From Streptomyces sp. TN58 (GTDB lineage Bacteria > Actinomycetota > Actinomycetes > Streptomycetales > Streptomycetaceae): a DNA stretch of 64,000 nt. Location: assembly GCF_001941845.1 (NCBI RefSeq), contig NZ_CP018870.1:4904001-4968000 (forward strand), in the 5' to 3' direction. The notes below the pieces were generated by a model. The model saw only the letters and a program-made list of their open reading frames with translations. It ran no database searches and had not been told where the DNA came from. Both the position numbers and the translations under genes were made by a program. How positions within the stretch are numbered: the first letter of the stretch is position 1; the number at the start of each line of letters is the position of its first letter. Shown here piece after piece: positions 23,467-40,930 of the stretch.

Positions 23467-24719
23467 CCGCCGCACTCACCGCCTTCTCCGTGTCGTCCCA
23501 CACCCTGCGCGCCCTCGCCTCCACCGAGCCCTCCCCGGAGGGCACCCGCCTGGTCCGCGACGTACGCCGCTCCAAGCGCCTGGTCCTGCTCCGCGCCGTC
23601 CTCGACGCCGCGCCCTGCGGCCGGTCCGGGCAGACCGCCGACCACTGGGCCCTGCTGGAGGAGGCCGAACGCCACGACCCGGCCGCCGTACGCGACGTAC
23701 TGCACTACCCGGCCACCGGCGTGTGGGCCGAGGAAACCCTGCGCCGACTGCACGACCCCGACGGTCCGCCGCCGGACCTCGCTCACCTCGGCGCCCTCGC
23801 CGCGGCCGCGGCCCTGCGCTCCGGAATCTCCTTCACGCACACTCTGAGGCCCGTGCACGGCCGCCTCGTCCTGCCCACCCTCGGCCTGCTGCGCCCGGCC
23901 CGCCCCGGCCCGCTCGTCCTCACCGAACGCTCATGGGATCCCGACGACCCCGCGACGCTGCCCCTGCACGCACTGCCCGCGGGCCGTACCGCCCTCGACG
24001 ACCTCGACCCCTACCGGGCCCCCGGCCCCGCACACCCGGCCCCGCTGCGCCCCGCCCGCCGGCTCACCCCCAAGGGCCACAAACGCTGGGACACCCAGTG
24101 GTCCGGCGCCCTCACGCTGCTCCAGCGCTACGACACCGTCCGCGCGGAGGAGACCGTACAGCTGCTGCGCTCCCTCGTACCGCTCGCCGGCGGCTCCCGC
24201 TCCAGCGGCGCCACCCTCCCCGCGGCCGCGGGCTCCGTACTGGCCCGCGCGCAGGCCCCGCCCGCGCTCGCCGCGACCCTCGTCCACGAGGTCCAGCACG
24301 GCAAACTCACCGCGCTCGCCGACGTCCTGACCCTGCACACCGCCGACGCGACGCCCCGCCACTGGGCCCCCTGGCGCAGCGACCCGCGTCCGCTGGAAGG
24401 GCTCCTGCACGGCGTCTACGCCCACCTGGCCCTCGCCGGGTACTGGCAGCGCGCCGCCCTGTACGGCGCCCGCGGCGCCTGGGCGCAGCACGCCCGGATC
24501 CGGGCGCAGGTCTCCGCCGTACTGCCCGTCCTGCGTGCGCACGAGCAGCTGACCAACGCGGGGCGGGAGTTCACGGACGCGATGGCCGCCGCGGAACGGG
24601 CCATGGACGACCTGCCGCCGCCCGGCGACCAGCATGCGGCGGCCCGCCGGGCCGTCGACCGCGAACGCCGAGCCTGGTGCGAGGCGCACCCCGGACTCGC
24701 CCCGTTCGCGCAGGTCTGA
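23463..24719 (+). CDS. HExxH-motif peptide-modification protein (putative aKG-HExxH-type hydroxylase)
   Basis: This 418-residue protein starts inside the fxsB stop (ATGA). It has the HEVQH motif at residues 275-279 (ATLVHEVQHGKLTAL), the single hallmark of the HExxH-type RiPP modification proteins often encoded with FxsB. Once thought peptidases, members are now described as alpha-ketoglutarate-dependent peptide beta-hydroxylases. A later His (LLHGVYAHLALAGYW) could be the third metal ligand. The rest is helical and poor in motifs. Its tight coupling to fxsB predicts action on the same FxsA peptide. Confidence 0.85.
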   Translation: MTAALTAFSVSSHTLRALASTEPSPEGTRLVRDVRRSKRLVLLRAVLDAAPCGRSGQTADHWALLEEAERHDPAAVRDVLHYPATGVWAEETLRRLHDPDGPPPDLAHLGALAAAAALRSGISFTHTLRPVHGRLVLPTLGLLRPARPGPLVLTERSWDPDDPATLPLHALPAGRTALDDLDPYRAPGPAHPAPLRPARRLTPKGHKRWDTQWSGALTLLQRYDTVRAEETVQLLRSLVPLAGGSRSSGATLPAAAGSVLARAQAPPALAATLVHEVQHGKLTALADVLTLHTADATPRHWAPWRSDPRPLEGLLHGVYAHLALAGYWQRAALYGARGAWAQHARIRAQVSAVLPVLRAHEQLTNAGREFTDAMAAAERAMDDLPPPGDQHAAARRAVDRERRAWCEAHPGLAPFAQV

Positions 24720-24783
24720 CGGGCCGTCCGCTGCGGTACCTTTTCAGTCCCGTCCACTGCCCGCAGCCCAGGGAGACGGCCGC

Positions 24784-27700
24784 ATGACCACCGGTAGCCG
24801 GCAGGACCGCGAACGTGAATCGGCGCAACAGCCCCCACTGGCGCCCCAGCAGCCGCAGCGTTTCGTCATCAGCTTCGCGGGCTTCAACCGGCCCTGGGCC
24901 GTGTGGATCGCCCACCGCCTGGAGGAACACGGCCACCGCGTGACCCTCCAGCGCTGGGACCCGCAGAACAGCCCCGGCATCACACAGGCCCTCGACGACC
25001 TCGCCCGCTCCGGCAGCCGCGTCCTCCTCGTCCTCAGCGAACGCTACTTCTCCGCCGGCACCCACACCGACCAGGAGTGGAACACCGCCCTGCGTGCCGT
25101 CACCGACGACCACCCCGACCGGTTCGCCGCCGTCTGCCTCACCGACGCCCCCCTGCCCAGCGCCGTCGCCGTCCTGGAGAAGACCGACCTGTGGGGCCTG
25201 GACGCGTACGAGGCCGAATACCGCGTGCTGCGCCGCCTCGAACTGCCCACCGACCGCATCGGCACCGAAACCGGCCGCCGCGGACCCCGCTTCCCCAACG
25301 ACCCGCCCGAGATCTGGGGCCGCGTACCGCGCCGCAACCCCCGCTTCACCGGCCGCAACGACGTCATCGGCACCCTGCGCCAAGCCCTCGCCGAAGCCCC
25401 GCCCGGCGCATCCACCGTCACCCTCCTCGGCCTCTCCGGCGTCGGCAAGACACAGGTCGCCACCGAGTACGCCTACCGCTTCGCCTCCGAGTACGACGTC
25501 GTCTGGTGGGTCCCCGCCGAGGACCGGCCCACCCTGCGCGAACGCCTCGCCGACCTGGCCCCCGCCCTCGGCCTCCCTCGCGGCGCCGGCAGCTACGGCG
25601 AGCAGATCCGGGCCGTCCTCGAAGCGCTGCGCCGCGGAACCCCGTACGGGCGCTGGCTGATGGTCTTCGACGGCTGCGACAACCCCGACGACCTCATCGA
25701 CCTGCTGCCCTCCGGCGGCGGCGACGTCATCATCACCTCCCGCAACCGCGAATGGGCCGCCCGGCACACCAGCCTCGTCGAGGTCCCCCTCTACGCCCGC
25801 CCCGAGTCGATCACCTTCATCCGCCGCCGCGCCCTGCGCCTGACCGCCGACGAGGCCGACCAGCTCGCCGAGGCCCTGGAGGACTACCCCCTCGCCCTCG
25901 ACCAGACCGCCGGCTGGCTCGCCGACTCACCGCTGCCCGTAGGCGACTACCTCGCCCTCCTCCAGCGCCGTATGGACTCCCGCGAGGCCGTCACGCTCTC
26001 CGAGGACTACCCGCTGCCCTTCCCCACGGCCCTCGCCATACTCCTCAACAACGTCCGGGAGAACTTCCCCGACGCCCTCGCCCTCCTGCGGCTCTTCGTC
26101 TTCTTCGCCCCCGGCCCCGTCCCGCTGCGCCTGCTGCGCGAGTTCCCCGCCGACGACGTACCGGAACAGCTCGCCGGACTCATCAACGACCAGATCCGCT
26201 GGAACGCCGCCCTCAACAAGCTCGTCCAGTTCTCCGTCGTACGGCTGGAGTACTCCGACCTGCCCGTGGAGGAGGGCGGCGGCGGCCTGGAGACCGTGCA
26301 ACTGCACCGCATGGTCCACGGCATCGTCCGCGAGGACCTCTCCGAGGACGAGGCCGAACCTCTCGCCCGGGCCGTCCGCCAGGTCCTCGCCGCCGCCGAC
26401 CCCGGCCGGCCCTCCGACTCCCGGCTCTGGCCCCGCTACGCCGAACTCGTCCCCCACCTCACCCCCTCCGGGGTGATCACCAGCAGCAATCCGCGCATCC
26501 AGAACTTCCTGCTGCACTGCCTGCGCTACCTGATCCTGGCGGGGGAGTACCGCACCTGCCTGCGCCTGTGCGAGGAGACCGACCAGATCTGGCGGGCCCG
26601 GCTCGGCGACGACCACCCCAAGGTCCGCGAGCTCAGCTACCAGTACGGCAACTCGCTGCGCAACCTCGGCCTGTTCCGCCGCGCCGAGATCCTCACCAGG
26701 ACGGTCGCCGACCGCCTCACCGGCGAACGCGGCGACCAGGACCTGGAGAGCCTGCGCGCCACCAGCGCCTACGGCGGCGTGCTGCTGTGCATCGCCAAGT
26801 TCGAACCGGCCCGCGAGATCTTCGAGCACTGCCTGGCCACCTACCGCGAACTCCTCGGCGAGGACGACTCCATCACCCTCGACGCCCAGAACAACCTGGC
26901 CGCCACCTACCGGCTGCTCGGCCGCTACCAGGACGCCTACGACCTCGACCTGGACACCCTTCGGCGCCGCGAACGCGTCCTGATGCCCCTGCACATCTCC
27001 ACCCTCGCCTCCGGCATCGCCTGCGCCATGGGGCTACGCCTCATGGGCCGCTACCGCGAGGCCCAGACCCGGCAGGAGCAGGGCGTCAAGCTCAACACCC
27101 AGGTCCTCGGACTCGGCCACCCCCAGACCCTGCGCGCCGAGCACAACCTCGGCCTGTGCCTGCGCCGCTCCGGCGACATCCCCGGCGCCGGCCTGCGGCT
27201 GCGGACCGTCTGGGAGCGGGCGACGCGCGTCTTCGGCGTGGACTACCCCTGGACGCTGATGGTCGCCTCCGACTACGCCACGTACCTCAGGGAGTACGGG
27301 GACATCGGCGAGGCCCGCCGCATCTCCGAGGACGTCGTACGCGGCTACCAGTCGCAGCTCGGCCTCGCCCACCCGTACAGCATCGGCACCGTCGGCAACC
27401 TCGGCCTGGTCCTGCGCGCCCAGGGCGAACGGGCGGAGGGCCTGTCCCTCGCGGAACAGGCCCTCGTCGGCATGCGGGGCGCCCTCGGCGGCCGGCACCC
27501 CTGGACCCTGGGCTGCGCCCTCAACGCCACCGGCCACCGCAACATCACCGGCCGGCTGGAGGACGCGCTGGACCTGAGCCGCGAGACACTGCGCACGGCC
27601 GAGCAGGTCCTGGGACCGGACCACCCGATGACTCTGAGCGCCCAGATCGCCCTGGCGGCGGACCTTCGCTCGGTACGGGAGGACACGGAGGCGGGCAAGC

Positions 27701-27813
27701 ACGAGGAGGCGGGCATCAAGGGCCTGACCCGCACCCTGGGCCCGCAACACGTCCACACGGTCTCGGCGAAACAGCGGGCGAGGCCGTACTGGGACTTCGA
27801 ACCCCAGCCGTAG
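24784..27813 (+). CDS. TIR-NB-ARC-TPR protein of the FxSxx system
   Basis: This 1009-residue STAND protein starts with a TIR domain (about 25-150; RFVISFAGFNRPWAVWIAHRL). Its Glu98 in TDQEWN is placed where TIR NADases have the catalytic Glu. An NB-ARC ATPase follows: Walker A LLGLSGVGKTQ with Lys222, Walker B WLMVFDGCDN, ITSRNREWA, and the GxP-like YPLALDQTAGWLA. From about 600 to the end are TPRs of the 42-residue type (ARLGDDHPKVRELSYQYGNSL and similar). Such architecture is typical of a sensor with a suicidal or signalling TIR effector. It ends the operon. Confidence 0.92.
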   Translation: MTTGSRQDRERESAQQPPLAPQQPQRFVISFAGFNRPWAVWIAHRLEEHGHRVTLQRWDPQNSPGITQALDDLARSGSRVLLVLSERYFSAGTHTDQEWNTALRAVTDDHPDRFAAVCLTDAPLPSAVAVLEKTDLWGLDAYEAEYRVLRRLELPTDRIGTETGRRGPRFPNDPPEIWGRVPRRNPRFTGRNDVIGTLRQALAEAPPGASTVTLLGLSGVGKTQVATEYAYRFASEYDVVWWVPAEDRPTLRERLADLAPALGLPRGAGSYGEQIRAVLEALRRGTPYGRWLMVFDGCDNPDDLIDLLPSGGGDVIITSRNREWAARHTSLVEVPLYARPESITFIRRRALRLTADEADQLAEALEDYPLALDQTAGWLADSPLPVGDYLALLQRRMDSREAVTLSEDYPLPFPTALAILLNNVRENFPDALALLRLFVFFAPGPVPLRLLREFPADDVPEQLAGLINDQIRWNAALNKLVQFSVVRLEYSDLPVEEGGGGLETVQLHRMVHGIVREDLSEDEAEPLARAVRQVLAAADPGRPSDSRLWPRYAELVPHLTPSGVITSSNPRIQNFLLHCLRYLILAGEYRTCLRLCEETDQIWRARLGDDHPKVRELSYQYGNSLRNLGLFRRAEILTRTVADRLTGERGDQDLESLRATSAYGGVLLCIAKFEPAREIFEHCLATYRELLGEDDSITLDAQNNLAATYRLLGRYQDAYDLDLDTLRRRERVLMPLHISTLASGIACAMGLRLMGRYREAQTRQEQGVKLNTQVLGLGHPQTLRAEHNLGLCLRRSGDIPGAGLRLRTVWERATRVFGVDYPWTLMVASDYATYLREYGDIGEARRISEDVVRGYQSQLGLAHPYSIGTVGNLGLVLRAQGERAEGLSLAEQALVGMRGALGGRHPWTLGCALNATGHRNITGRLEDALDLSRETLRTAEQVLGPDHPMTLSAQIALAADLRSVREDTEAGKHEEAGIKGLTRTLGPQHVHTVSAKQRARPYWDFEPQP

Positions 27814-28136: not shown

Positions 28137-28502
28137 TCAGAACGGGTGGAAGAGGTTCCTGGTGGACGGATCCTGCATCTGCATATCCCGTCCATCGGAC
28201 TGCAGGAGGGCGTTCCAGTGCTGGGGGACCAGCGCCGCCCCGAAGGACACCACGGTCCACGCGGCGAACGCGGCGTGCGCGAGGAGCGTGCGGTGGCAGA
28301 GCGCCGACGCGGCCCGCTCCGCGAGGGCGAGCGAGGGCGCGGTCAGATAGAAGCCGACGACCGGACCGCCCGCCGCGTCGCCGTGCGCACTGACGTGTTC
28401 CAGGCCCTCCCCGTCGAGGGCGCACCCCAGGAACAGCTGTGCCGCGTCCGGGGGGAGTGAGGTCTGATCCGGGGCTCGAAGTCGGACATGCACGAGATAC
28501 AT
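28137..28502 (-). CDS. Hypothetical protein with an unusual C-terminal tail
   Basis: This 121-residue protein begins MYLVHVRLRAPDQTSLPPDAAQLF and has no motif I can name; the pattern suggests a small alpha/beta domain. AGGA before the ATG at 28502 supports that start. The last residues, GRDMQMQDPSTRNLF then HPF, closely resemble a short reading frame at 29754-29804 (GRVMPVQNPSTGKDF). At DNA level this is one of two related palindromes around the next regulator gene. Confidence 0.7.
   Translation of the reverse strand: MYLVHVRLRAPDQTSLPPDAAQLFLGCALDGEGLEHVSAHGDAAGGPVVGFYLTAPSLALAERAASALCHRTLLAHAAFAAWTVVSFGAALVPQHWNALLQSDGRDMQMQDPSTRNLFHPF
28161..28196. promoter_or_regulatory. Palindromic element A (related to the element at 29751)
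   Basis: GGTGGACGGATCCTGC (28161-28176) and GCATATCCCGTCCATC (28181-28196) form an imperfect dyad matching at 11 of 16 positions. The 36 bp match the reverse complement of element B at 30 of 36 positions. It lies within the 3' end of a coding gene, 450 bp before the regulator, so either an operator or a conserved peptide-coding tail is possible. Confidence 0.4.
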
Positions 28503-28648
28503 ACGGCCATCCTGGGCAGCGCCCGCGCCCGCAGTACAGACCGGCACAGGGGACTGTTTATGCCAAAACAGGAAGTGACCAGGGAGCACTTGGCGTCTTC
28601 TTATGGTTCCCTACTGGCGCACGTGTACTAATATCCGGGGGTATCGCC

Positions 28649-29647
28649 ATGCTTGAACTGCTCGGGCTCGACGCCGAGGCCGAACGCGTCTACCGGGCAC
28701 TGCTCGCCCACCCCAAGGACGGGGTGACGGCGCTCGCCCAGCGGCTGGCGCTTCCCGAGAGCGACCTGCGCGCCTGCCTCGACCGGCTCAGCCGTCTCGC
28801 CCTGGTCCAGCCCTCCTCCCGAGAGGGCGTCGGGTTCCGTGCGCTGAATCCCGAAGACGCCATGGAACTGCTGCTGGCCCGCCAGCAGGCCGAACTGGCC
28901 GCCCACCAGCAGAAGGTGGAGGCGTCCCGGGCCGCCGCCGCGCAGCTCATCGCCGAATGCTCGGCGATGCGTCCGCCGGGCGCCACCGCCGGCGCCGAGA
29001 GCCTGCAAGGGCCGGAGGAGATACGCGACCGCCTCGCACGGCTGGCCGCCAACACCCGCCACGAGATCATGACGTTCGCGCCCGGCGGGGCCCACAGCGC
29101 CGCCGACCTCGAAGCCAGCCGCGGTCCCAACGCCGCGCTCCTGGACCGGGGGATCACCATGCGCACCGTCTACCTCGACAGCGTCCGCAACCACCAGCCC
29201 ACGCTCGATCACGTGGACTGGCTGCACCGCCACGGTGGACAGGTCCGCACCGCTCCCACCCTGCCGGTGCGGATGATCATCTCGGATCGACGCGAGGTCG
29301 TCCTCCCTCTCGACACGAACGACGCCCAGACCGGCGCGGTCGTCCTGACCTACGACGGGACCATCGCCGCGCTGTGTGCCCTGTTCGAGAGCGTCTGGCA
29401 GAGCGCCAACCCGCTGGGCACCGCCGTCGAACGCAACATGGACGGGCTGACCCGCCAGCACCGGGAGTCCCTCCACCTGCTCCTCCAGGGCCTCACGGAC
29501 GAGGCCATCGCCAAACGCCTCGGGGTCTCCCCGCGCACCGCCCGCCGCATCGCCGCCGAACTCATGGAAGCCCTGGAGGCCCGCAGCCGCTTCCAGGCCG
29601 GCGCGCACGCCGTCCAGAACGGCTGGCTCCCCGCCACGCGCGTCTGA
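28649..29647 (+). CDS. TrmB/LuxR-type helix-turn-helix regulator of the methanobactin-like locus
   Basis: This 332-residue protein has an N-terminal TrmB-like winged helix (LELLGLDAEAERVYRALLAHPKDGVTALAQRL), a coiled segment, a PLD-like middle domain, and a C-terminal LuxR HTH (LTDEAIAKRLGVSPRTARRIAAELMEAL). This two-HTH layout is common beside streptomycete secondary-metabolite genes. The ATG at 28649 after GGGGG is used. A terminator follows the gene, so the peptide genes have their own promoter. It is the likely cluster-specific regulator acting on the flanking palindromes. Confidence 0.85.
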   Translation: MLELLGLDAEAERVYRALLAHPKDGVTALAQRLALPESDLRACLDRLSRLALVQPSSREGVGFRALNPEDAMELLLARQQAELAAHQQKVEASRAAAAQLIAECSAMRPPGATAGAESLQGPEEIRDRLARLAANTRHEIMTFAPGGAHSAADLEASRGPNAALLDRGITMRTVYLDSVRNHQPTLDHVDWLHRHGGQVRTAPTLPVRMIISDRREVVLPLDTNDAQTGAVVLTYDGTIAALCALFESVWQSANPLGTAVERNMDGLTRQHRESLHLLLQGLTDEAIAKRLGVSPRTARRIAAELMEALEARSRFQAGAHAVQNGWLPATRV

Positions 29648-29678
29648 GGCCCGCCCGGCCCCCCTTCCACCCTCTATG

Positions 29679-29707
29679 AAAGCCGCGTCCTGCCGGGACG
29701 CGGCTTT
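29679..29707 (+). terminator. Intrinsic terminator after the regulator gene
   Basis: AAAGCCGCGTCC (29679-29690) pairs perfectly with 29696-29707 around a TGCCG loop and runs into a T tract (TTTT). This classical factor-independent form is uncommon in Streptomyces and separates the regulator from the peptide genes. Confidence 0.9.
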
Positions 29708-29750
29708 TCGTCGTTCAGCGGCCCGTTCTTCCCTTGCCGTGGCAGGTGGA

Positions 29751-29786
29751 GGTGGACGGGTTATGCCAGTGCAGAATCCGTCCACC
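29751..29786. promoter_or_regulatory. Palindromic element B upstream of the peptide genes
   Basis: GGTGGACGGGTTATGC (29751-29766) and GCAGAATCCGTCCACC (29771-29786) match as inverted repeats at 14 of 16 positions with a CAGT centre. It lies 150 bp before the first peptide ATG, beyond the regulator's terminator. It is a strong candidate operator for the TrmB/LuxR regulator. The same DNA can encode a 13-residue peptide from ATG 29763, so a coding origin cannot be excluded. Confidence 0.6.
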
Positions 29787-29936
29787 GGAAAGGACTTCCA
29801 GTGATCGCCGGGGACCGGCACAGTAGAGACATCGGCAGGGAGAACCGGCCGAGGACGGTGAAGTCGGGAATTCCTTCACGGGAATCCGGAAAACTTCGCT
29901 CCGTCATATGTCATATGCGGCAAGGAGGTGAAAGAA

Positions 29937-30005
29937 ATGATCGACATCCAGGACATCGAGGTCGTGGCCGAGGCGCTGACCTGCGGCAGCTACAACAGGG
30001 TCTGA
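29937..30005 (+). CDS. mbnA: Methanobactin-like precursor peptide, copy 1 (22 aa)
   Basis: The peptide is 22 residues: leader-like MIDIQDIEVVAEAL followed by core-like TCGSYNRV. AAGGAGGTGA sits 6 bases before the ATG, an excellent ribosome site. It is too short for routine gene callers. The Cys-Gly-Ser motif echoes the Cys-Gly-Ser at the first oxazolone/thioamide site of methanobactin precursors, and an MbnB/MbnC-like pair is encoded downstream. Unlike known precursors there is only one Cys. An identical second copy starts 141 bp downstream. A small hairpin (GCAGGG/CCCTGC) follows the stop. Confidence 0.85.
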   Translation: MIDIQDIEVVAEALTCGSYNRV

Positions 30006-30077
30006 GCCTGCGCAGGGTGATCCCTGCCCGGTGCGTGTGCGGCTGACACAACGAACAAAGGCGAGGAGGTGAAGGAA

Positions 30078-30146
30078 ATGATCGACATCCAGGACATCGA
30101 GGTCGTGGCCGAGGCGCTGACCTGCGGCAGCTACAACAGGGTCTGA
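30078..30146 (+). CDS. mbnA: Methanobactin-like precursor peptide, copy 2 (22 aa)
   Basis: This gene is identical to copy 1 at all 69 bases, including the stop, while the spacer between the two is unrelated apart from the ribosome-site region (GAGGAGGTGAAGGAA against AAGGAGGTGAAAGAA). Such perfect identity points to recent duplication or gene conversion and to selection for peptide dose. A 12-bp hairpin follows the stop, before the first enzyme gene. Confidence 0.85.
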   Translation: MIDIQDIEVVAEALTCGSYNRV

Positions 30147-30156
30147 GTCATCGTGA

Positions 30157-30184
30157 GGGCGCGCTCCGGATACGGAGCGCGCCC
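30157..30184 (+). terminator. Hairpin between peptide and enzyme genes (partial terminator/stabiliser)
   Basis: GGGCGCGCTCCG (30157-30168) pairs perfectly with 30173-30184 around a GATA loop, 11 bases after the second peptide stop and 36 bases before the first MNIO gene. There is no T run. In RiPP operons such hairpins commonly reduce read-through into the enzyme genes and protect the precursor message; that role is inferred. Confidence 0.7.
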
Positions 30185-30220
30185 CCGCCGTACGGGGAAT
30201 CCGGGGGGAGAGGAAGAGAA

Positions 30221-31375
30221 ATGCAAGCGACGGTTCAGCCGGTTCACGACGACTTCCTGCGCGTGGGTGGGGCGTTCACTCCGGGGTTTCTCGACCCCGA
30301 CCCGGACAGGAGGCTCGCCCTCGTCGGCGAAAGCCCCTTCCTGGAGTTCGGATTCAACGAATGGCGGAAATGGGAAAGCCTTGAGGAAGTGCCGAACATC
30401 CCGGAATTCTCCCTCCACCTGGGGCGTACGGCGATCTGCGAGGGCCCGCGCGAACAGGCCCGCTACATCGACTACGTGATGGACCAGTCGGCCACCCGCC
30501 GCAACAAGCCGACCTCCATCGGAGTGCACGTCACCGGAGAAAGGGCCCTGGGCGGCGGCTCCTTCGGACTCCACTCGTACTTCACCGGCACCAAGGAGGA
30601 AGAGCAACGCGCCGTCCGCTTCCTCACCGACCTCCACAAGGCCTCCGGCCTGCCCGTCTGGGTGGAGAACGCCAACTGCTACTCCGCCTCCGCCCGGGGC
30701 ATCCTGGACGCCTGGCAGGCGGTGACGCGCATCTGCGAGAACACCGGGTCCGGCCTCATCGTCGACCTCGCCCACCTCTACATCGACGCCGTCAACTGCG
30801 GTGTCCCCGTAGAGGTGCTCCTCGGCGCGGTCCCCTGGTCCCAGGTGGTCGAACTGCACCTGTCGGGCGTCCGCACGGGACGGGACGGAACGCTCCACGA
30901 CGGCCACTCCGAGGCGGTCCACGAAGGCGTGTGGTCGCTGCTGGACACCGTGGTGAGCCAGCGGCTGATCACCGAAACGGAGCCCATCACCGTGATCGTC
31001 GAACACGCGGACCTCACCTGGACGGACCGCGCGGAGCAGTACTACGCCGACTTCGCCCGAGCGGCGTCGTTCCAGGAACGGCACCGCCAGGCGGCCCTCG
31101 CGGGAGCCACGGACGCCCAGCCGCACGACTACGGCGTCCCCTACTGCCGCGCCTACCTCCGCCAGCTCTGCAAGGGCTGGATCCCGGGCCTCGCGGAGGC
31201 CTCCGAACAGCGCGGCCTGCCGTACGCCGACCTGTTCGACCAGTGGGTGGACGACGTCCGCGCCCGTGGCAAGCGCATCGTCCTCAACCTCGACGAGATC
31301 CCCCCGGCCGAACGGCCCGGAGCGGTCAGCGCCCCCCAGGACCTGCTGGCCTACGCCAAGGAGAAGCTGCGCTGA
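30221..31375 (+). CDS. DUF692-family (MNIO) protein, divergent accessory copy
   Basis: This 384-residue protein is a TIM-barrel DUF692-type enzyme. Signature sites are visible: PVWVENANCYS (Glu), GLIVDLAHLYIDAVNCG (equivalent of DxNNxxVNxxNHG, with Asn replaced by His), VVELHLSGV (His), LHDGHSEAVHEGVW (Asp-x-His) and VIVEHADLTW (Glu). So most iron ligands are kept with substitutions. It is about 110 residues longer than the next gene's product, with an extra C-terminal helical region. Its stop overlaps the MbnB-like start (TGATG). Canonical methanobactin operons have one MbnB, so this second MNIO may install another modification. Confidence 0.82.
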   Translation: MQATVQPVHDDFLRVGGAFTPGFLDPDPDRRLALVGESPFLEFGFNEWRKWESLEEVPNIPEFSLHLGRTAICEGPREQARYIDYVMDQSATRRNKPTSIGVHVTGERALGGGSFGLHSYFTGTKEEEQRAVRFLTDLHKASGLPVWVENANCYSASARGILDAWQAVTRICENTGSGLIVDLAHLYIDAVNCGVPVEVLLGAVPWSQVVELHLSGVRTGRDGTLHDGHSEAVHEGVWSLLDTVVSQRLITETEPITVIVEHADLTWTDRAEQYYADFARAASFQERHRQAALAGATDAQPHDYGVPYCRAYLRQLCKGWIPGLAEASEQRGLPYADLFDQWVDDVRARGKRIVLNLDEIPPAERPGAVSAPQDLLAYAKEKLR

Positions 31376-32193
31376 TGCTGATCGGTGTCAATGTGACCTC
31401 GCCGGACACCCTGGAGATGGCGTGCCGGCTGCGCGACTCGGGACACGTCGACTTCGTCGAGGTCCTGATCGACGGCTTCGCGCACCTCGACCCGCAGGAG
31501 TTCCGCCGCACGGTCGGTGACCTCCCGGTCGGCTGCCACATCATGCTCTCCCGGTTCCTGGATCCGGACCGGGCACGCCTCGACCACTACCTGGGCCTGG
31601 TGAACCAGTGGCAGGCGGACTGCGGCCTGCTCTACGTCAGCGACCACATCGCCCACTTCTCCCACAACGGCCAGCCGCTGCCCGTCGCCCTGGAGGTCGA
31701 CTACACCGACTGGCAGCCGGTGATCGACTCCGTGCGCGCCTGGCAGGACCAGCTCGGCACCATCCTCGCCGTGGAAAACTTCCCGTCGCAGCGGGCGAGC
31801 GACATTCCTCAGGCCCGCGCCTATGCCGAGCTCACCGCGGCGACCGGATGCGAAGTCCTCATGGACGTGTCCAACGCCATGGTCGCCCAGCTCAACACCG
31901 GGCAACCCGCCGCCGCATGGACCGAGGTCCCGGGCGTGGGCCGCAGGTTCCACCTGGCAGGCTACAGCCCCTCCCCGGCGGCCCCCTCCCTCATCGTCGA
32001 CAGCCACGACGCTCCGGTCAGCGACGACACCCTCGACCTGGTGGCCCTGTTCGCCGGCCGCGCCGCACCGGACGCCACGCTCGTCGTCGAACGCGACGCC
32101 AACCACGACCTGGACGAATGGAGAACGGACCTTGACCGCACGCGCGCCGCAGTCGTCGCGGCTCAACGCCTGCATCAGCCCCACCGCCCGTGA
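31375..32193 (+). CDS. mbnB: MbnB-like multinuclear non-heme iron oxidase
   Basis: This 272-residue protein closely resembles MbnB, which with MbnC converts Cys to an oxazolone plus thioamide. Features that match my knowledge of the family are IGVNVT at the start, VDFVEVLIDGFAHL, CHIMLSRFLDPDRA, YVSDHIAHFSHNG, VENFPS, DVSNAMVAQLNTG, FHLAGY and VERD. The metal-ligand set looks complete: His55, His91, Glu134, Asn167, His193, Asp209, His211 and Glu239. Start is the ATG at 31375 overlapping the previous stop. The partner gene begins inside its 3' end, consistent with a heterodimer. Confidence 0.9.
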   Translation: MLIGVNVTSPDTLEMACRLRDSGHVDFVEVLIDGFAHLDPQEFRRTVGDLPVGCHIMLSRFLDPDRARLDHYLGLVNQWQADCGLLYVSDHIAHFSHNGQPLPVALEVDYTDWQPVIDSVRAWQDQLGTILAVENFPSQRASDIPQARAYAELTAATGCEVLMDVSNAMVAQLNTGQPAAAWTEVPGVGRRFHLAGYSPSPAAPSLIVDSHDAPVSDDTLDLVALFAGRAAPDATLVVERDANHDLDEWRTDLDRTRAAVVAAQRLHQPHRP

Positions 32194-32674
32194 CGTGCTC
32201 ACCCCGGGCTCCCGGGACCGGCTGATCGCCCAGGAATCGCTCCGCATCCGCTGGCACCAGCTCTTCGACCGCATCCCGCAGCTGGCCGAACGCCTGCCGG
32301 ACACCACCGACCTCTACGAGGCCTTCCTGGAATGGGCCCTGGCCGCGGGCAGGCGGCTCGACTGGCGCATGCACCTGCACTTCCTCGAATTCCTGGACGC
32401 CGAAGGCATCGCCCTTCAGCCGCAGGACCACATCGAACTGCTCGCCGCCTCGGCCGCACGCTGGTTCGCCTCACCCGACCACCGGCAACGGGGCATGGCC
32501 CTCACCACCGCAGCCACCGCCCCCCGCGTCGTCGTGGCACTGAAGGGGCAATCGCCCTTGGAACGCGGCCGCGTGAAGCTCGCCGCTGTGCCGGGCCTGG
32601 AGCCGGAACCGGGCATCCGGTGGTCGCTCTCCCGTTCCGGCGACTTCGCCACCCTCGCCTGGAGCCCGCTGTGA
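32132..32674 (+). CDS. mbnC: MbnC-like partner protein of the MNIO enzyme
   Basis: This 180-residue protein has no catalytic motif. It resembles MbnC in size, in its place after mbnB, and in the stretch ESLRIRWHQLFDRIPQLAE followed by FLEWALAAGRRLDWRMHLHFLEFL, as far as I recall the family pattern. MbnC-type partners bind the precursor leader and complete the active site. I choose TTG at 32132 because GGAGAA lies 6 bases upstream; GTG at 32195, just past the mbnB stop, would remove 21 residues. Its stop overlaps the exporter GTG (GTGA). Confidence 0.8.
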   Translation: MTARAPQSSRLNACISPTARDVLTPGSRDRLIAQESLRIRWHQLFDRIPQLAERLPDTTDLYEAFLEWALAAGRRLDWRMHLHFLEFLDAEGIALQPQDHIELLAASAARWFASPDHRQRGMALTTAATAPRVVVALKGQSPLERGRVKLAAVPGLEPEPGIRWSLSRSGDFATLAWSPL

Positions 32675-34005
32675 CCGCCGCGACCAAGGCCGCCCCCGAC
32701 ACCACCGCCACCCCCTCGCTGGGCCGACGGGTCCTCGCCCTGATGGGCCCCATGATGGTGGCGTCCGTCATGGGCCAGGCCATCGCCCAGACCGATCTGT
32801 GGGTGATCAGCACGCTGGGCGAGGAGGCGGTGGCCGCCGCCGCGGTGCCGCAGCGCCTGCTCCTCCTCGACGCGATCACCGCCATGGCCATGGGACCTGT
32901 CGTCGGGCTGTCCGTGGCCGGGGCCGTGTCCGCCCACGCCCGGCGGCGCGCCGTCCAGGGCGGGCTGATCGGTGCCACGGCCGCCGGGCTGCTCATCGCG
33001 GCACTCGGCCTGGCCGTGCTGCCGTACCTCGTGGACGCCCTGGTCGCCGCACCGGCCATCCGCGACAACACGCAGTCGGCCCTGGTGTGGCTGTTGATCG
33101 CCACCCCGGTCCGCCTCGCGCAGTTCGTCGGCGCCATGGCCCTCTTCGCACTCCGGCGCTCCCGCCCCCTCCTCGTCCTGTACGCCGTCGCCGTCCTGGC
33201 CAACGCTGCGCTCGACCTGCTCCTCGTACACGGAGCCGGAATGGGCTTCGCCGGCGCCTACGCCGCCACGTCTGTCATCGCCGCCATCGAATGCGCCGTC
33301 ACCGTATGGCTGTTGCGTGATCACCTCCGCGTCCCCCTCCGGATACGCGACAGCGCGCGCTGGCTGCGCCAGGTGGCGCGCAGCATGCTCACCGAGTGGG
33401 GCCACATGCTCTCCGTGATCGGCTTCGAACTGCTCCTGGTCCTCACCCTGACCCTGCACGCCTCCTGGGCGGACCGGCTCGCCGCGTTCTCCGCAGGCGC
33501 CGTGCTCACGGCGACGCTGCACATCCCGATCACGGCGCTGGTCAACGCGACCGGCATGGTCCACAAGGGCGCGGCCCCCTCCCCCCGGGAGTGGCGTCAC
33601 CTGCGCCGATGGGTCCTGGGCGTGTCCGCGGGCGTCGGCGTCCTCGTCACGATCACCGCCTGGACGGTGCTGCCCGGGCTCTACGGCCTGCACGGCCCGG
33701 CGGCGACCTGGTTCACCTGGCTGATGGCCGGACAGGCCGCCGCCTTCCCCTTCCGGCTCCTGGCCGCCACCGCCGAGGGCCGGCACAAGGCCGCCGACCG
33801 CTTCGGCGTGGTGCTGCGCCTGCGTCTGCTCCAGGAGTTCGCCATATCCCTGCCGGTCTTCCTCGTGGGCCTGCTGACGGACAACGCGCCGCTCGCCTGG
33901 TCGGGCATCGCACTGGGCTGCGCGGTCAACTACTGGCTGCTGCACACAGCCGACCCGCACCGCGTCAGCCGCTCCCGGAGCCTTCCTGCTCCGGGCTCGC
34001 CCTGA
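32671..34005 (+). CDS. MATE-family exporter (MbnM-like)
   Basis: This 444-residue membrane protein has about twelve hydrophobic segments in two halves, the MATE fold. The first half starts LGRRVLALMGPMMVASVMGQAIAQTDLWVISTLG with the usual conserved Pro/Gln/Asp positions. It would export the finished peptide in exchange for protons or sodium; methanobactin operons carry a MATE exporter called MbnM. Start is the GTG at 32671 overlapping the partner's stop. It closes the cluster; no importer (MbnT-type TonB receptor) would be expected in a Gram-positive. Confidence 0.88.
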   Translation: MTAATKAAPDTTATPSLGRRVLALMGPMMVASVMGQAIAQTDLWVISTLGEEAVAAAAVPQRLLLLDAITAMAMGPVVGLSVAGAVSAHARRRAVQGGLIGATAAGLLIAALGLAVLPYLVDALVAAPAIRDNTQSALVWLLIATPVRLAQFVGAMALFALRRSRPLLVLYAVAVLANAALDLLLVHGAGMGFAGAYAATSVIAAIECAVTVWLLRDHLRVPLRIRDSARWLRQVARSMLTEWGHMLSVIGFELLLVLTLTLHASWADRLAAFSAGAVLTATLHIPITALVNATGMVHKGAAPSPREWRHLRRWVLGVSAGVGVLVTITAWTVLPGLYGLHGPAATWFTWLMAGQAAAFPFRLLAATAEGRHKAADRFGVVLRLRLLQEFAISLPVFLVGLLTDNAPLAWSGIALGCAVNYWLLHTADPHRVSRSRSLPAPGSP

Positions 34006-34178: not shown

Positions 34179-34505
34179 CTACGCGGGGGCGCTCTCCGCG
34201 GCGACCCACGCCAGGTAGGCGTCCGAGCCGCCGTCCACCGCCACCACGATCCACTCGGGCACCTCGTAGCCGTGCACCCGCTCGATCCAGGCGCCGAGGG
34301 CGGGCAGCCGGTCCCGTGTCGTCTTGTAGGAGACGCGCCACTCGGTGGCCGTCTCCACGGTCCCCTGCCAGCGGTAGACGGCGGTGACGGGCCCCTCGAC
34401 GTGCGCGCAGGCCGCCAGGCGGCCCTCCACCGCGCCCCGGGCCAGCTCCCTCGCCCGGTCTTCGCCGTCGACGGTGGTCTGCGCGATCACGATGCCGTTC
34501 GCCAT
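34179..34505 (-). CDS. cutA: CutA1-family divalent-cation tolerance protein
   Basis: This 108-residue protein has the trimeric CutA fold: VIAQTTVDGEDRARELARGAVEGRLAACAHV, then VYRWQGTVETATEWRVSYKTT and HGYEVPEWIVVAVDGGSDAYLAWV. Family members bind copper and other divalent ions, but the physiological role is unclear. Its position beside a methanobactin-like cluster is notable but it is more likely part of the conserved core next to sucA. Length is typical. Confidence 0.93.
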   Translation of the reverse strand: MANGIVIAQTTVDGEDRARELARGAVEGRLAACAHVEGPVTAVYRWQGTVETATEWRVSYKTTRDRLPALGAWIERVHGYEVPEWIVVAVDGGSDAYLAWVAAESAPA

Positions 34506-34555
34506 GGCGGTCCTCCCGCAGTGTCGGATTCCGCGAGGACACTACCCGGACCACG

Positions 34556-34595
34556 CCGGAAGGCCCGGCCCCCATGTGGGGGCCGGGCCTTCCGG
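34556..34595 (-). terminator. Strong terminator after sucA/kgd
   Basis: A perfect 18-bp stem, CCGGAAGGCCCGGCCCCC (34556-34573) with its complement at 34578-34595, has an ATGT loop. It sits 18 bases past the sucA stop on the minus strand. Confidence 0.9.
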
Positions 34596-34612
34596 CTTGG
34601 TGCTCGGGGCGG

Positions 34613-37600
34613 TTACGCCTCGAAGACCTCGTTGATCAGCTGCTGCTGCTCCGCCTGGTGGCGCTTCGCGGAGCCCACCGCCGGGGACGAGCCGTGCGGG
34701 CGCGAGATGCGCCGCAGGCGCTCGCCCGCCGGGACCTCCGCGCCGACCGCCAGGTCGAGGTGGTCGATCAGGTTCAGCGCGATGAACGGCCACGCGCCCT
34801 GGTTCGCCGGCTCCTCCTGCGCCCAGATGTACTTCGCCGCGTTCGGGAACTTGGCGATCTCGGCCTGGAGCTCCGCACCCGGGAGCGGGTACAGGCGCTC
34901 GATGCGGATGATCGCGGTGTCCGTGATGCCGCGCTTCTCGCGCTCGGCCTCCAGGTCGTAGTAGACCTTGCCGGCGCAGAAGACGACCTTGCGGACCGCG
35001 TTCGGGTCCACCGTGCTGTCGCCGATGACCGGACGGAACGAACCGCTCGTGAACTCCTCCGCCTTCGACGCCGCGGCCTTCAGACGCAGCATCGACTTCG
35101 GGGTGAAGACGATGAGCGGCTTGTGGTGCGGGTTGTGGACCTGCCAGCGCAGCAGGTGGAAGTAGTTCGACGGCAGGGTCGGCATCGCGACCGTCATGTT
35201 GTCCTGCGCGCACATCTGGAGGAAGCGCTCCGGGCGGGCGGACGAGTGGTCCGGGCCCTGGCCCTCGTAGCCGTGCGGCAGCAGCAGCGTGACGCCGGAG
35301 GTCTGGCCCCACTTCTGCTCGGCCGAGGAGATGAACTCGTCGACGACGGTCTGGGCGCCGTTGACGAAGTCACCGAACTGCGCCTCCCACAGCACCAGCG
35401 CGTCCGGACGGGCCAGCGAGTAGCCGTACTCGAAGCCCATCGCCGCGTACTCCGAGAGCAGCGAGTCGTAGACGTTGTAGCGGGCCTGGTCGTCCGACAG
35501 GTAGAGCAGCGGGGTGTAGTCCTCGCCGGTCTCCCGGTCGATGAGGACCGCGTGGCGCTGGCCGAAGGTGCCGCGGCGGGAGTCCTGGCCGGACAGCCGG
35601 ACCGGGGTGCCCTCCATCAGCAGCGAACCGAAGGCCAGGGTCTCGCCCATGCCCCAGTCGATGGTGCCCTCGTCGATCATCGCCGCGCGGCGCTGCAGCT
35701 GCGGCAGCAGACGCGGGTGGACGGTGACGCCCTCGGGGATGGAGACCTGGGACTCGGCGATCCGCTTGACGACGTCCTGGGAGATCGCGGTGTTCACGGC
35801 GACCGGGAAGACGGCGGACGTGCCGGGGGCGGCCGGCGAGGCGGCCGCGGGCTGCGTGGCGGCCTCGCGGACCTCCGCGAAGACCTTCTCCAGCTGGCCC
35901 TGGAAGTCCTGGAGCGCCTGCTCGGCCTCTTCCAGCGTGATGTCGCCGCGACCGATGAGGGACTCGGTGTACAGCTTGCGCACCGAGCGCTTCTTGTCGA
36001 TCAGGTCGTACATCAGCGGCTGCGTGAAGGCCGGGTTGTCGGACTCGTTGTGGCCGCGGCGGCGGTAGCAGATGAGGTCGATGACCACGTCCTTGTTGAA
36101 CGCCTGGCGGAACTCGAAGGCCAGCCGCGCGACGCGGACGACGGCCTCGGGGTCGTCGCCGTTCACGTGGAAGATCGGCGCCTCGATCATGCGGGCCACG
36201 TCGGTGGCGTACATGGAGGAGCGCGAGGACTCCGGGGCGGCGGTGAAGCCGACCTGGTTGTTGATGACCACGTGCACGGTGCCGCCGGTGCGGTAGCCGC
36301 GCAGCTGCGACATGTTCAGCGTCTCGGCGACGACGCCCTGGCCGGCGAAGGCCGCGTCGCCGTGCAGGGCGACGGGCAGGACGGTGAAGTCCGTGCCGCC
36401 CTTGTTGATGATGTCCTGCTTGGCGCGGGCCACACCCTCCAGGACCGGGTCGACGGCCTCCAGGTGGGAGGGGTTCGCGACGAGCGAGACCTTGATCTGC
36501 TCGCCGTCCAGGCCGGTGAAGGTGCCCTCGGCGCCCAGGTGGTACTTGACGTCGCCGGAGCCGTGCATGGACTTCGGGTCGAGGTTGCCCTCGAACTCGC
36601 GGAAGATCTGCGCGTACGACTTGCCGACGATGTTCGCGAGGACGTTCAGGCGGCCGCGGTGGGCCATGCCGATGACGACCTCTTCGAGGCGGGCCTCGGC
36701 GGCCGAGTCGATGACGGCGTCGAGCAGCGGGATGACGGACTCGCCGCCCTCCAGGGAGAAGCGCTTCTGGCCGACGTACTTCGTCTGCAGGAAGGTCTCG
36801 AAGGCCTCGGCGGCGTTCAGGCGGCGCAGGATGCGCAGCTGCTCCTCGCGCTCCGGCTTGGTGTGCGGGCGCTCGATGCGGTCCTGGATCCAGCGGCGCT
36901 GCTTGGGGTCCTGGATGTGCATGAACTCGACGCCGGTGGTGCGGCAGTACGAGTCGCGCAGCACGCCGAGGATGTCGCGCAGCTTCATCATGGACTTGCC
37001 GGAGAAGCCGCCGACGGCGAACTCGCGCTCCAGGTCCCACAGGGTGAGGCCGTGCTCGGTGATGTCGAGGTCGGGGTGCTTGCGCTGCTTGTACTCCAGC
37101 GGGTCGGTGTCGGCCATGACGTGGCCGCGGACCCGGTAGGAGTGGATCAGCTCGAAGACGCGGGCGGCCTTGGTGACGTCGTCGTCGTGGCTGGCGTCGA
37201 TGTCGCGGTTCCAGCGGACCGGCTCGTACGGGATGCGCAGCGACTCGAAGACGGCGTCGTAGAAGCCCTCCTCGCCGAGGAGCAGGTTCGCGACGATGCG
37301 CAGGAACTCGCCGGAGGCCGCGCCCTGGATGACCCGGTGGTCGTAGGTCGAGGTCAGGGTCATGACCTTGGAGATGCCCAGCTTGTTCAGGGTGTCCTGC
37401 GAGGTGCCCTGGAACTCGGCGGGGTAGTCCATGGAGCCGACGCCCATGATGACCGACTGTCCGGGCATCAGGCGGGGCACGGAGTGGACGGTGCCCAGGC
37501 CGCCGGGGTTGGTGAGGGAGCAGGTCACGCCGGTGAAGTCGTCCATCGTCAGCTTGCCGACGCGGGCGCGGCGGACGATGTCCTCGTAGGCCTGCCAGAA

Positions 37601-38482
37601 CTCGAAGAAGTTGAGGGTCTCGGCCTTCTTGATGCCGGCGACGACGAGCTGGCGGTCGCCGTTGGGCTTCACGAGGTCGATGGCGAGGCCGAAGTTGACG
37701 TGGTCGGGCTTGACCAGGGTCGGCTTGCCGTCCTTCTCCGCGAAGGAGTGGTTCATCGAGGGCATGGCCTTGATGGCCTGCACCATCGCGTAGCCGATGA
37801 GGTGCGTGAAGGAGATCTTCCCGCCCCGGGCCCGCTTGAGGTGGTTGTTGATGACGATGCGGTTGTCGAACAGCAGCTTCACCGGGACGGCGCGGACGGA
37901 CGTGGCCGTCGGGACGTCGAGGGAGGCGTTCATGTTCTTGGCCACGGCAGCCGCCGGGCCGCGGAGCGTCACCAGCTCGGGGCCCGCGGGGGCCTCAGCG
38001 GTGGGCGCGGCCTTCTGCGGGGCTACGGAGGCGGGGGCGGGCGCGGCCGGTGCGGCGGCCGGAGCCTGGGAGGTGACAGTCACAGCAGGGGCACCAGAGG
38101 GGATGGCAGGAGCAGGGGCAGGAGCTGACACAGGCGGAGGAGTCGGCGTCGCGGAGGGCGCGGGCGCGGCGTCCGCCGCCCCCGTGGCGGCGTCGGCGGC
38201 CTGCGGGGTCCCGGCGGCGGCGGTGGCGGCCTGTGCGGAGGCGCCGTCCGTCGGCGTGGACTTCTCGGGACCGGCCGACGTCACCGGAGCGGCAGCGCCC
38301 CCCGGCTTGTAGTCGGCGAAGAAGTCCCACCAGGCGCGGTCGACCGACTGCGGGTCCTGGAGGTACTGCTGATAGATCTCGTCGACGAGCCACTCATTCG
38401 CGCCGAAGCCTGAGGCAGGGTTCTTCCCGCCCTCTGCTGCGTCGGTCGTGGTGCTCGAATTACTGGGGGACTGTGGCGACAC
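34613..38482 (-). CDS. sucA: Multifunctional 2-oxoglutarate dehydrogenase E1/E2 (Kgd type)
   Basis: This 1289-residue protein is the actinobacterial fusion. An E1o N segment ([30 protein letters not shown]) is followed by an Ala/Pro linker of about 110 residues, an E2 acyltransferase domain without lipoyl domain (active-site region [16 protein letters not shown]), and a full thiamine-dependent E1 ([24 protein letters not shown]). It acts in the citric acid cycle on 2-oxoglutarate and needs separate lipoylated E2 and E3. I use the GTG at 38482 giving [10 protein letters not shown]; the frame opens to 38557. An FHA regulator such as GarA/OdhI would bind the E1 part. Confidence 0.95.
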
Positions 38483-38753
38483 GGCGGCAACCGCCCTCTT
38501 CCGCTTCACAAGGTATGGACAGCGGGAATAAAGGCTACGCCTCCTCGGCCGCTGCATGCAGGCCGGGCGGGACTTACGTCGCGTAGGTCACATCGAACGG
38601 CGGGTTTCGGGACGTGGAATGGCGGGAAACCAGCCTGGTTCGGGTAGGGGGCACCGAGGTTGCGGCCCCCTTGGCTTCGCACCCCTGACGGACCCCGGGT
38701 ACGTGTGGCCGAGATCATGTCCTTCCCAGTCGAACCCTACGTCAACACGGCAC

Positions 38754-39845
38754 CTACGAGCTGCCCGGAAGCGTGACGAGGATGCGGCAGCCACGTGACG
38801 ATTCGGCCACCCCGATCCGGCCGCCGTGCAGCTCCACGGCCCAGCGCGCGATCGCCAGGCCCAGTCCGGTGCCTCCGTCGCCGCCGCGGGCGCTGCCCCG
38901 GTTGAACCGCTCGAAGACCCGGTGGCGCTCCGCCTCCGGGATCCCGGGGCCCTCGTCGCGGACCTCCAGCACCAGGCTGCCGGGCACCTCGCCGGCCCGC
39001 GCCCGGACCGTGACCCGGCCGTGCGGGGGGCTGTGCTTGACCGCGTTGTCGATCAGATTGGCCACCACCTGGTGCAGGCGTTCGGCGTCGGCGTAGGCGC
39101 ACAGTTCCGGCGGGAACACGTCCAGGTGCAGGTGCACGTCGTTGCGGGTGTGCCCGCCGGAGCCGGAGAGCAGCCCCGGCCGGCCCGCGGCGGCCAGCCC
39201 CGACTCCTTCAGCACCCCGGACAGGTACGGCCACACCTCGAAGCGGCGGGCCCTCAGCGGCACCACGCCGTTGTCCACCCGGGACAGGTCCAGCAGGGTC
39301 TCCACGAGCCGGCCGAGGCGCTCGGTCTGCTTCAGCATGGTGCGCATGGTCTCGGGGTCGGCGGCCGAGACGCCGTCGACGACGTTCTCCAGTACCGCCC
39401 GCAGCGCGGCGATCGGTGTGCGCAGCTCGTGCGACACGTTGGCGACGAGCTCCTTGCGGTGCCGGTCCACGGCCTCCAGGTCGTCCGCCATGAGGTTGAT
39501 CGTGGAGGCCAGGTCGCCCAGCTCGTCGCGGCGTCCGGCGCCCCGCACCCGACGCGTGAAGTCGCCGTGGGAGATCGCCCGGGCCACCGTGGTCATGTCG
39601 TCCAGCGGGGCCGTCAGGCTGTGCGCCACGAACTGGGTGATCAGCATCGAGGCGATCACCGAGAAGACGGTGATGAAGCGCAGCTCGGTGTCGGTGCGCA
39701 GGGCCACCAGCAGCAGGCCGGTGGTGATGAAGACCGAGACGACCACGAGGGTGCCGAGCTTGGTCTTGATCGAGAACGGTGAGAAGGGCCGCAGCCCTCC
39801 GGTGGGCCGGTGGCGCGGGTGCGGGCCCTCCGCCCGGCCGTTCAC
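38754..39845 (-). CDS. Sensor histidine kinase
   Basis: This 363-residue kinase has two membrane helices (LGTLVVVSVFITTGLLLVAL and FITVFSVIASMLITQFVA) with almost no external loop, a HAMP domain, the H-box VANVSHELRTPIAAL, the N-box LIDNAVKHS, and G boxes DEGPGIP and GTGLGLAIARW. The tiny extracytoplasmic part suggests sensing in the membrane. Its GTG start overlaps the response regulator stop (GTGA). The pair lies directly upstream of sucA/kgd. Confidence 0.93.
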   Translation of the reverse strand: MNGRAEGPHPRHRPTGGLRPFSPFSIKTKLGTLVVVSVFITTGLLLVALRTDTELRFITVFSVIASMLITQFVAHSLTAPLDDMTTVARAISHGDFTRRVRGAGRRDELGDLASTINLMADDLEAVDRHRKELVANVSHELRTPIAALRAVLENVVDGVSAADPETMRTMLKQTERLGRLVETLLDLSRVDNGVVPLRARRFEVWPYLSGVLKESGLAAAGRPGLLSGSGGHTRNDVHLHLDVFPPELCAYADAERLHQVVANLIDNAVKHSPPHGRVTVRARAGEVPGSLVLEVRDEGPGIPEAERHRVFERFNRGSARGGDGGTGLGLAIARWAVELHGGRIGVAESSRGCRILVTLPGSS

Positions 39846-40582: not shown

Positions 40583-40930
40583 GTCCGCCCCTGAAGATCC
40601 CGCTGAATGGGGTGCAGCGTAGAGGAGGCTCGGGCCTGCGGCTACGTGGGGTTCGGACACGGCATATGCGCTGGACCTGAGCAAATGGAATGGGATGTAC
40701 CGGGTGTCGGACCCCTCGCGGGGCCGGTGTCCGGCGGGCGCGGCGGTCAGCTGCCCCACCGGCTGCGACCTCGTCGGATCCCTCTTGGAGGGGACCTACA
40801 AGGCCGGTCCGCGGCCGGGCGGGAAGACCGGGGTGTGAGTGTCGTTCGGCACATCCGGCCGCGCGTACGGCGATCTCCGCCCGTGCCGGGCCGGCAGGCC
40901 GGCCGCTCCCGGACCGGCCGGCAAGGGGGC
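40583..40930. other. Intergenic region upstream of the response regulator
   Basis: These 348 bases between the two-component genes and the lipoprotein gene hold the promoter of the regulator. I see no convincing gene, repeat or structured RNA; the frame 40607-40990 on the plus strand is poor coding sequence and lies across the lipoprotein's 3' end. Confidence 0.5.

Follow-up and report, generated by a model that had tools for sequence, protein, structure and literature searches.

Does an actinomycete carry the enzymes of methanobactin biosynthesis and, if so, is their product a methanobactin in the classical sense? The question is raised by a group of genes in Streptomyces sp. TN58, which we analyzed within a stretch of 64,000 nucleotides (contig NZ_CP018870.1, positions 4,904,001 to 4,968,000; hereafter the window). 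Two copies of a short precursor peptide gene are followed there by genes for two DUF692 (MNIO) proteins, MNIO1 and MNIO2, then by a gene for a small partner protein and one for a MATE exporter (Table 1). MNIO2 is a homologue of MbnB and its partner a homologue of MbnC. We consider it likely that the genes form a cassette for a methanobactin-like ribosomally synthesized and post-translationally modified peptide (RiPP) with a single Cys, in which MNIO2 and the MbnC homologue would act on Cys16 of the precursor, MNIO1 would make a second change, and the MATE protein would export the product.

A conserved and intact cassette

The cassette is real, conserved, and intact. A pattern-based scan of a collection of 84,980 species yielded 47 stretches; the loci that encode an MbnB relative numbered 15. 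Within the available sequence, MNIO1 adjoins MbnB in three of these 15 loci, found in Kitasatospora sp. MAP5-34 (L026), Streptomyces katrae NRRL ISP-5550 (L027), and Streptomyces sp. SM10 (L028). This pairing is absent from both plasmid loci, L024 and L025, and the remaining MNIO1 matches in the scanned loci are MbnB itself. The precursor of the window has 22 residues, with Cys16 as its only Cys and TCGSYNRV as its core, and its two genes are identical at 69 of 69 bases. L026 and L027 have two copies each of MIDIQDIEVMAEALTCGSYNKG and L028 has one copy of MIDIEEIEVVAEALTCGDYIR. All four actinomycete precursors have one Cys and share a Tyr, and three of the four have an Asn. The genes for MNIO1, MNIO2, the MbnC homologue, and the MATE protein are under purifying selection, with dN of 0.26-0.33 and dS of 0.89-0.93 between the window and SM10. 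Given this difference and the conservation of the cassette in three named relatives, it represents more than a chance assembly of genes.

The cassette is also rare, since at E 1e-25 samples of 392 genomes of the same genus and 396 of the same phylum yielded no match other than the genome of TN58 itself. Such a sporadic occurrence would fit a decayed or silent cassette that makes no product. However, all frames are open, dN is well under dS, the metal ligands described below are intact, and the precursors are kept in tandem in three of the four loci, so that we regard decay as very improbable.

Table 1. Features of the cassette and of its surroundings in the window.
Feature	Positions	Strand	Basis
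Amino-acid-type ABC permease	9704-10645		
Neighbour of the radical SAM gene, no Pfam match	17650-21006		
Radical SAM protein, 579 aa	21727-23466	+	
Neighbour of the radical SAM gene, no Pfam match	23286-24719		
TIR and TPR protein, 1059 aa	24634-27813	+	
LuxR-type regulator	28439-29647		
Upstream region common to S. katrae, likely promoter region	29678-29936	+	blastn homology with L027 starts at 29678
Precursor peptide gene, copy 1, encodes MIDIQDIEVVAEALTCGSYNRV	29937-30005	+	open reading frame
Precursor peptide gene, copy 2, encodes MIDIQDIEVVAEALTCGSYNRV	30078-30146	+	identical to copy 1
GC-rich hairpin between precursors and MNIO1	30153-30188	+	folding energy compared with shuffles
MNIO1, 384 aa, C-terminal extension of about 100 residues	30221-31375	+	PF05114, tree
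MNIO2, MbnB homologue, 272 aa	31375-32193	+	TIGR04159, PDB search, tree
MbnC homologue, 180 aa, TTG start within the mbnB 3' end	32132-32674	+	TIGR04160, PDB match, alignment
MATE exporter, MbnM-like, 444 aa	32671-34005	+	NF045578, PF01554
CutA1	34179-34505	-	

MNIO2 and its partner are of the MbnB and MbnC types

MNIO2 has a PF05114 match of 88.9 bits, and among the NCBIfam models it scores 229.1 bits with MbnB (TIGR04159), 79.4 with BufB, 49.8 with HvfB, and 20 with ApyH. In a PDB search, six different MbnB sequences matched with E values of 1.8e-39 or lower (MbnB 7tcr at 3.7e-49); the next MNIO was 3bww, at E 0.26, and TglH was absent from the matches up to E 1. A 57-row tree separates an MbnB group (26 rows, support 99/98), an MNIO1 group (13 rows, 100/100), and a comparison group (18 rows, 93/96), the latter with five rows over the BufB cut-off and two over the HvfB cut-off among the ten that were scanned. 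This tree omits six rows, i.e. L001, L006, L047, and L051 (wrong-strand translations), P0013 (gapped), and VcMbnB (long branch), and has no row for TglH. The scores and the tree place MNIO2 with MbnB and not with BufB/HvfB, as the initial annotation of the locus had proposed, and together with the PDB search they led us to reject a BufB or TglH reading of this protein.

The accessible text of Dou et al. 2022 (PMC8888699) gives His55, His91, Glu135, Asp165, Asn168, His194, Asp209, and Glu238 as the iron ligands of VcMbnB, in addition to His211 and the general base Asp240. All ten positions are kept in MNIO2, which should thus be an active MNIO. The initial annotation had also named a full complement of likely iron ligands among the MbnB features of MNIO2. 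The set is indeed present: with MNIO2 counted, it occurs in 27 of 28 rows of the MbnB type, P0013 being gapped at one position, but the same ten residues occur in all 18 correctly translated comparison rows of the BufB/HvfB type. Hence, they indicate a competent MNIO, not MbnB as such, and we dropped them as a marker.

The partner resembles MbnC, as had been suggested: it scores 64 bits with NCBIfam MbnC (TIGR04160), matches the solved MbnC 7fc0_F at E 1.1e-8 in the PDB, and shares 16 invariant columns with MbnC homologues from 15 of the 17 other loci. A profile built from these 16 aligned sequences finds VcMbnC (7dz9_D) at E 1.5e-10. The TTG start of the partner is available at the same place in L026, L027, and L028, and the protein has no Pfam match, DUF2063 included. 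The best NCBIfam model for the MATE protein is MbnM (NF045578, 154.6 bits), in agreement with the expectation of an exporter of methanobactin type.

Several observations weigh against the methanobactin-like reading of the cassette. MNIO2 misses the equivalog cut-off of the MbnB model (325 bits), the partner that of MbnC (185), and the MATE protein that of MbnM (285). The NCBIfam model of MovA (NF050127) matches residues 14-21 of the precursor at E 0.015 with 15.2 bits, short of its cut-off of 33. In a tree of 63 rows the support of the MbnB group (28 rows) is 85/88, four comparison rows being faulty there, and VcMbnB, whose branch is long and unresolved, shows no specific grouping with MNIO2.

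Relation to classical methanobactins

The locus had been described as having the gene order of methanobactin operons, mbnA-mbnB-mbnC-MATE. These genes are present, but a second MNIO gene is inserted between the precursor and mbnB, unlike in the methanotroph loci L024 and L025. The likeness of the Cys-Gly-Ser in the core to classical methanobactin is right, judging from the sequence of OB3b MbnA in the accessible text of PMC8888699. To compare the precursors, we chose them manually from the lists of open reading frames of 18 loci (the window and L024-L040). The 13 that have at least two Cys are exactly those of the classical MbnB clade (100/99), and the five single-Cys loci, including the window, lie outside this 13-member clade in the 63-row tree. 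With one Cys in the core, a second MNIO of another clade, three missed NCBIfam cut-offs, and an MbnB outside the classical clade, the cassette is, by its sequence, not a classical methanobactin.

Could this Gram-positive nonetheless make a chalkophore, i.e. a classical methanobactin for copper acquisition? The MbnB-, MbnC-, and MbnM-like proteins encoded in one operon, the Cys-Gly-Ser core, and the neighbouring gene for CutA1 all point in that direction. Yet a single Cys makes the paired heterocycle/thioamide Cu(I) site impossible within one molecule, and none of the 13 loci of the classical clade has such a precursor. No importer gene lies next to the cassette among the neighbouring genes scanned, which cover part of the window and genome; an amino-acid-type ABC permease is encoded 19 kb away. 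The CutA1 gene, which is of the divalent-ion tolerance type and convergent to the MATE gene, is the sole PF03091 match in the genome and lies within a 6.7 kb stretch that is absent at this site in S. katrae. We rejected it as a part of the cassette, as it is present in a single copy per genome, is absent from the available flanks of L026 and L028, and has no MATE gene beside it in the three relatives (the S. katrae contigs are short). A chalkophore of the classical kind is thus unlikely. Copper binding by the product is at most putative; the accessible text of Kenney & Rosenzweig 2013 (PMC3621798) doubts it for the single-Cys group V. One might speculate that two molecules of the product share one Cu, each giving one pair of ligands.

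A second MNIO with an altered active site

MNIO1 matches PF05114 only in its middle (residues 134-248, 71.1 bits). Its NCBIfam scores are 60.4 bits for BufB, 58.3 for ApyH, 43.6 for HvfB, 38.1 for ChrH, and 16.9 for MbnB, far below every MNIO cut-off (the best score compares with a cut-off of 310), and in the PDB it matches TglH (8hci, E 1.8e-7). These values, and the ten active-site residues that MNIO2 shares with BufB/HvfB-type proteins, would fit a bufferin or oxazolin system (BufB/HvfB) or a TglH-type system misread as methanobactin-like. This is extremely unlikely given that MNIO2 and its partner are MbnB- and MbnC-like by profile and tree, the tree having largely refuted such an origin for MNIO2, that the precursor has by inspection no signal peptide and carries its Cys internally, and that the partner lacks DUF2063.

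We found no characterised member in the clade of MNIO1. In VcMbnB numbering, its metal ligands are kept except for Asn168, which is His, and the general base Asp240 is Ala. All 14 rows of the MNIO1 family have His at 168 and Ala, Ser, Thr, or Val in place of Asp at 240, a combination seen in none of the 18 comparison rows, as would be expected of proteins with a different reaction. The C-terminal part of about 100 residues has no Pfam match, and its local similarity to MbnC in an hhalign comparison is weak (probability 1.6%, p 0.031, with p 0.35 and 0.38 for reversed controls).

What might this reaction be? According to the accessible text of PMC12452194, MovX, the second MNIO of a Vibrio cluster, acts on a C-terminal Asn, leaves an amide, requires no partner, and is said to bear an extra domain; a winged helix is the added domain expected of the mov kind. 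MNIO1 likewise has an added part and may be a counterpart of MovX. In solved complexes (accessible text of PMC8888699), MbnC binds the leader, and the Cys enters the iron centre of MbnB to be oxidised. By analogy, residues 1 to about 14 of the precursor would serve as the leader, bound by the MbnC homologue, and MNIO2 with this homologue would carry out a four-electron oxidation of Cys16 to an oxazolone-thioamide or an isomeric 5-thiooxazole. A further oxidative step, by MNIO1, would alter the C-terminal SYNRV. The most likely candidate for it is N-C-alpha cleavage of the MovX type at residue 20, giving the C-terminal amide TCGSY-NH2; we propose it tentatively, as somewhat short of an even chance. 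The MATE protein would export the product, probably a short metal-binding or redox-active peptide. The reaction of MNIO1 and the binding of metal are the most uncertain parts of this scheme.

It is quite possible, if not what we would expect, that MNIO1 does something other than cleave at the Asn position, e.g. that it acts on the conserved Tyr or the adjacent Ser/Asp to give a new doubly modified peptide. The Tyr is kept in all four actinomycete loci and the Asn in three, MNIO1 forms a fully supported clade of its own with low scores for every NCBIfam model, and the known substrates of MNIOs include Asp and Phe besides Cys and Asn (accessible text of PMC12452194). On the other hand, an Asn four residues after the Cys, followed by a basic residue, is common to the precursors of the window, Kitasatospora, S. 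katrae, and Vibrio, as far as the published text covers the latter. The SM10 locus sits awkwardly with the cleavage: its precursor core, TCGDYIR, has Ile in the Asn position, while its MNIO1 frame is open and has the same active site as that of the window. Hence, either MNIO1 cleaves after Tyr regardless of the next residue, or it does something else. A broader proposal, which we regard as rather doubtful, is that the cassette represents a Gram-positive branch of the methanobactin type, where MbnBC would act on the Cys and MNIO1, with its extra domain and no catalytic Asp, on the Tyr region by an undescribed reaction, resulting in a new class of secreted metal-active peptides.

Probable horizontal transfer and distribution

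The descent of the cassette is discordant with that of its genomes. Compared with Kitasatospora, its DNA is 89.7% identical across 4,009 aligned bp (the sole long match, window 29936-33944); the values are 85.5% across 3,397 bp for S. katrae and 69.7% across 3,737 bp for SM10. For the neighbouring core gene encoding 2-oxoglutarate dehydrogenase, the identities are 84% with Kitasatospora, 95% with S. katrae, and 89% with SM10. Since the two orders conflict, the cassette has, most simply, moved between lineages by horizontal transfer. L026 starts at the first precursor, which makes only its downstream flank testable. In S. katrae, the counterparts of window 23958-27813 and 34555-40659 are only 92 bp apart, such that the 6.7 kb with the cassette are absent there, and its own cassette is on a different contig. 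The match with SM10 and that with Kitasatospora break off at 14.2 kb of the window and resume at about 34.6 kb. These missing stretches indicate that the cassette is in a variable spot.

This spot (window 14201-34555) lies beside the 2-oxoglutarate dehydrogenase gene, and about 20 kb of it are absent from SM10 and Kitasatospora. It carries trypsin-VMAP-C, radical SAM, and TIR-TPR genes, some of which resemble conflict systems. The stretch with the TIR and TPR protein is common to S. katrae, at 86% DNA identity.

At the looser threshold of E 1e-3, 37 of 61 genomes matched, and the best match outside the genome of TN58 (2.8e-11) corresponds to general MNIOs. No MNIO1 was found in viral contigs among the 37 pattern stretches. 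The MNIO1 profile gave a single match, partial and borderline (7.4e-21), in 398 genomes of the phylum of the L039 genome. The MbnB model gave eight matches at E 1e-20 in 369 genomes of the class of the L030 genome, with only the centre genome above the cut-off. A screen for a Vibrio genome with a replication-origin 12-mer gave at most three matches in any of 229 genomes. The NCBI name of the close relatives is "DUF692 family multinuclear iron-containing protein". A metagenome-assembled genome of Elusimicrobia (L033, 7843-9328) encodes MbnB and MbnC along with a single-Cys precursor ending in HCGSDLA; it is possibly a further methanobactin-like lineage outside Pseudomonadota. P0011, P0012, P0014, and P0015 form a sister MbnB lineage in the 63-row tree, which includes Nonomuraea sp. 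NPDC050783.

Organization of the locus

The genes from MNIO1 to the MATE protein abut or overlap, as in an operon, and each precursor gene has GGAGGTG on its 5' side. The hairpin between the precursors and MNIO1 has a folding energy of -33.4 kcal/mol (z -3.37), equalled by 1 of 200 shuffles, and its stem is visible in L026 and L027 and not in L028. It may set the ratio of precursor to enzymes. There were no matches to a sigma-70-like promoter in the upstream region common to S. katrae. A match to Rfam CC2171 at 30053-30184 (28.4 bits for a gathering threshold of 75) was regarded as chance. The LuxR-type regulator was rejected as a part of the cassette, having no homologue in L026-L028; this argument is weak as the upstream sequence of L026 and L027 is short. 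The whole genome (a single contig of 7,585,034 bases) has three PF05114 matches.

Comparison with known systems

The closest known system is the group V or mov cluster of Vibrio caribbenthicus (MovA, MbnB/MovB, MbnC, MovX). Its precursor is short and has a single Cys, and the end of VcMbnA, TCGAFNK (accessible text of PMC8888699), resembles that of the window. The precursors of the window, L026, and L027 fit TCGx(F/Y)N(K/R), whereas that of L028 does not. As far as the published text goes, both systems have MbnB, MbnC, a second MNIO, and an exporter, with no TonB importer. For Vibrio, the accessible part of Kenney 2013 (PMC3621798) describes an unidentified protein beside MbnA, another after MbnB, and an exporter without a TonB importer. 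However, the two systems come from different phyla, MNIO2 does not group specifically with VcMbnB, the window has two copies of the precursor gene, and its exporter is MbnM-like while that of Vibrio is called dissimilar in the same text. The cassette likely belongs to the mov kind. From UV data, a 2026 paper (PMC13097082) argues in its accessible part that a 5-thiooxazole may be what the mov system makes; it associates absorption near 305 nm with a thiooxazole and absorption at about 340 and 390 nm with an oxazolone-thioamide.

The classical operons of Methylosinus, Methylocystis, Rugamonas, and Azospirillum have, like the window, homologues of MbnB, MbnC, and MbnM and a small precursor. They differ from it in that their precursors have at least two Cys, that MNIO1 is missing from the loci compared, and that TonB receptors are annotated in L024 and L025. 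Bufferin and oxazolin systems (BufB/HvfB) share with the cassette the MNIO fold, the active-site residues of MNIO2, and chemistry on Cys, but the Sec signal peptide (accessible text of PMC12452194) and the DUF2063 partner are absent from it. In the TglH pearlin system, the Cys is at the C-terminus of a scaffold peptide, unlike the Cys of the window precursor. The std cluster of Streptomyces thermodiastaticus is likewise a Streptomyces RiPP system with an MNIO (StdE), with a different architecture that includes YcaO-TfuA, a carbamoyltransferase, and an SNKEWQE motif in the accessible text of PMC13174530. In the part of the literature that we covered, no mbnB-mbnC cassette is reported from Streptomyces or any other Gram-positive, so that an earlier mention elsewhere is possible.

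Implications

These results place MbnBC-type enzymes in Gram-positive producers that are genetically tractable. With the cassette, it can be examined whether a peptide that carries just one oxidised Cys serves any role, and the natural variant of SM10, which lacks the Asn, makes the MovX-type hypothesis directly testable. MNIO1, finally, stands for a clade of MNIOs with an altered active site.

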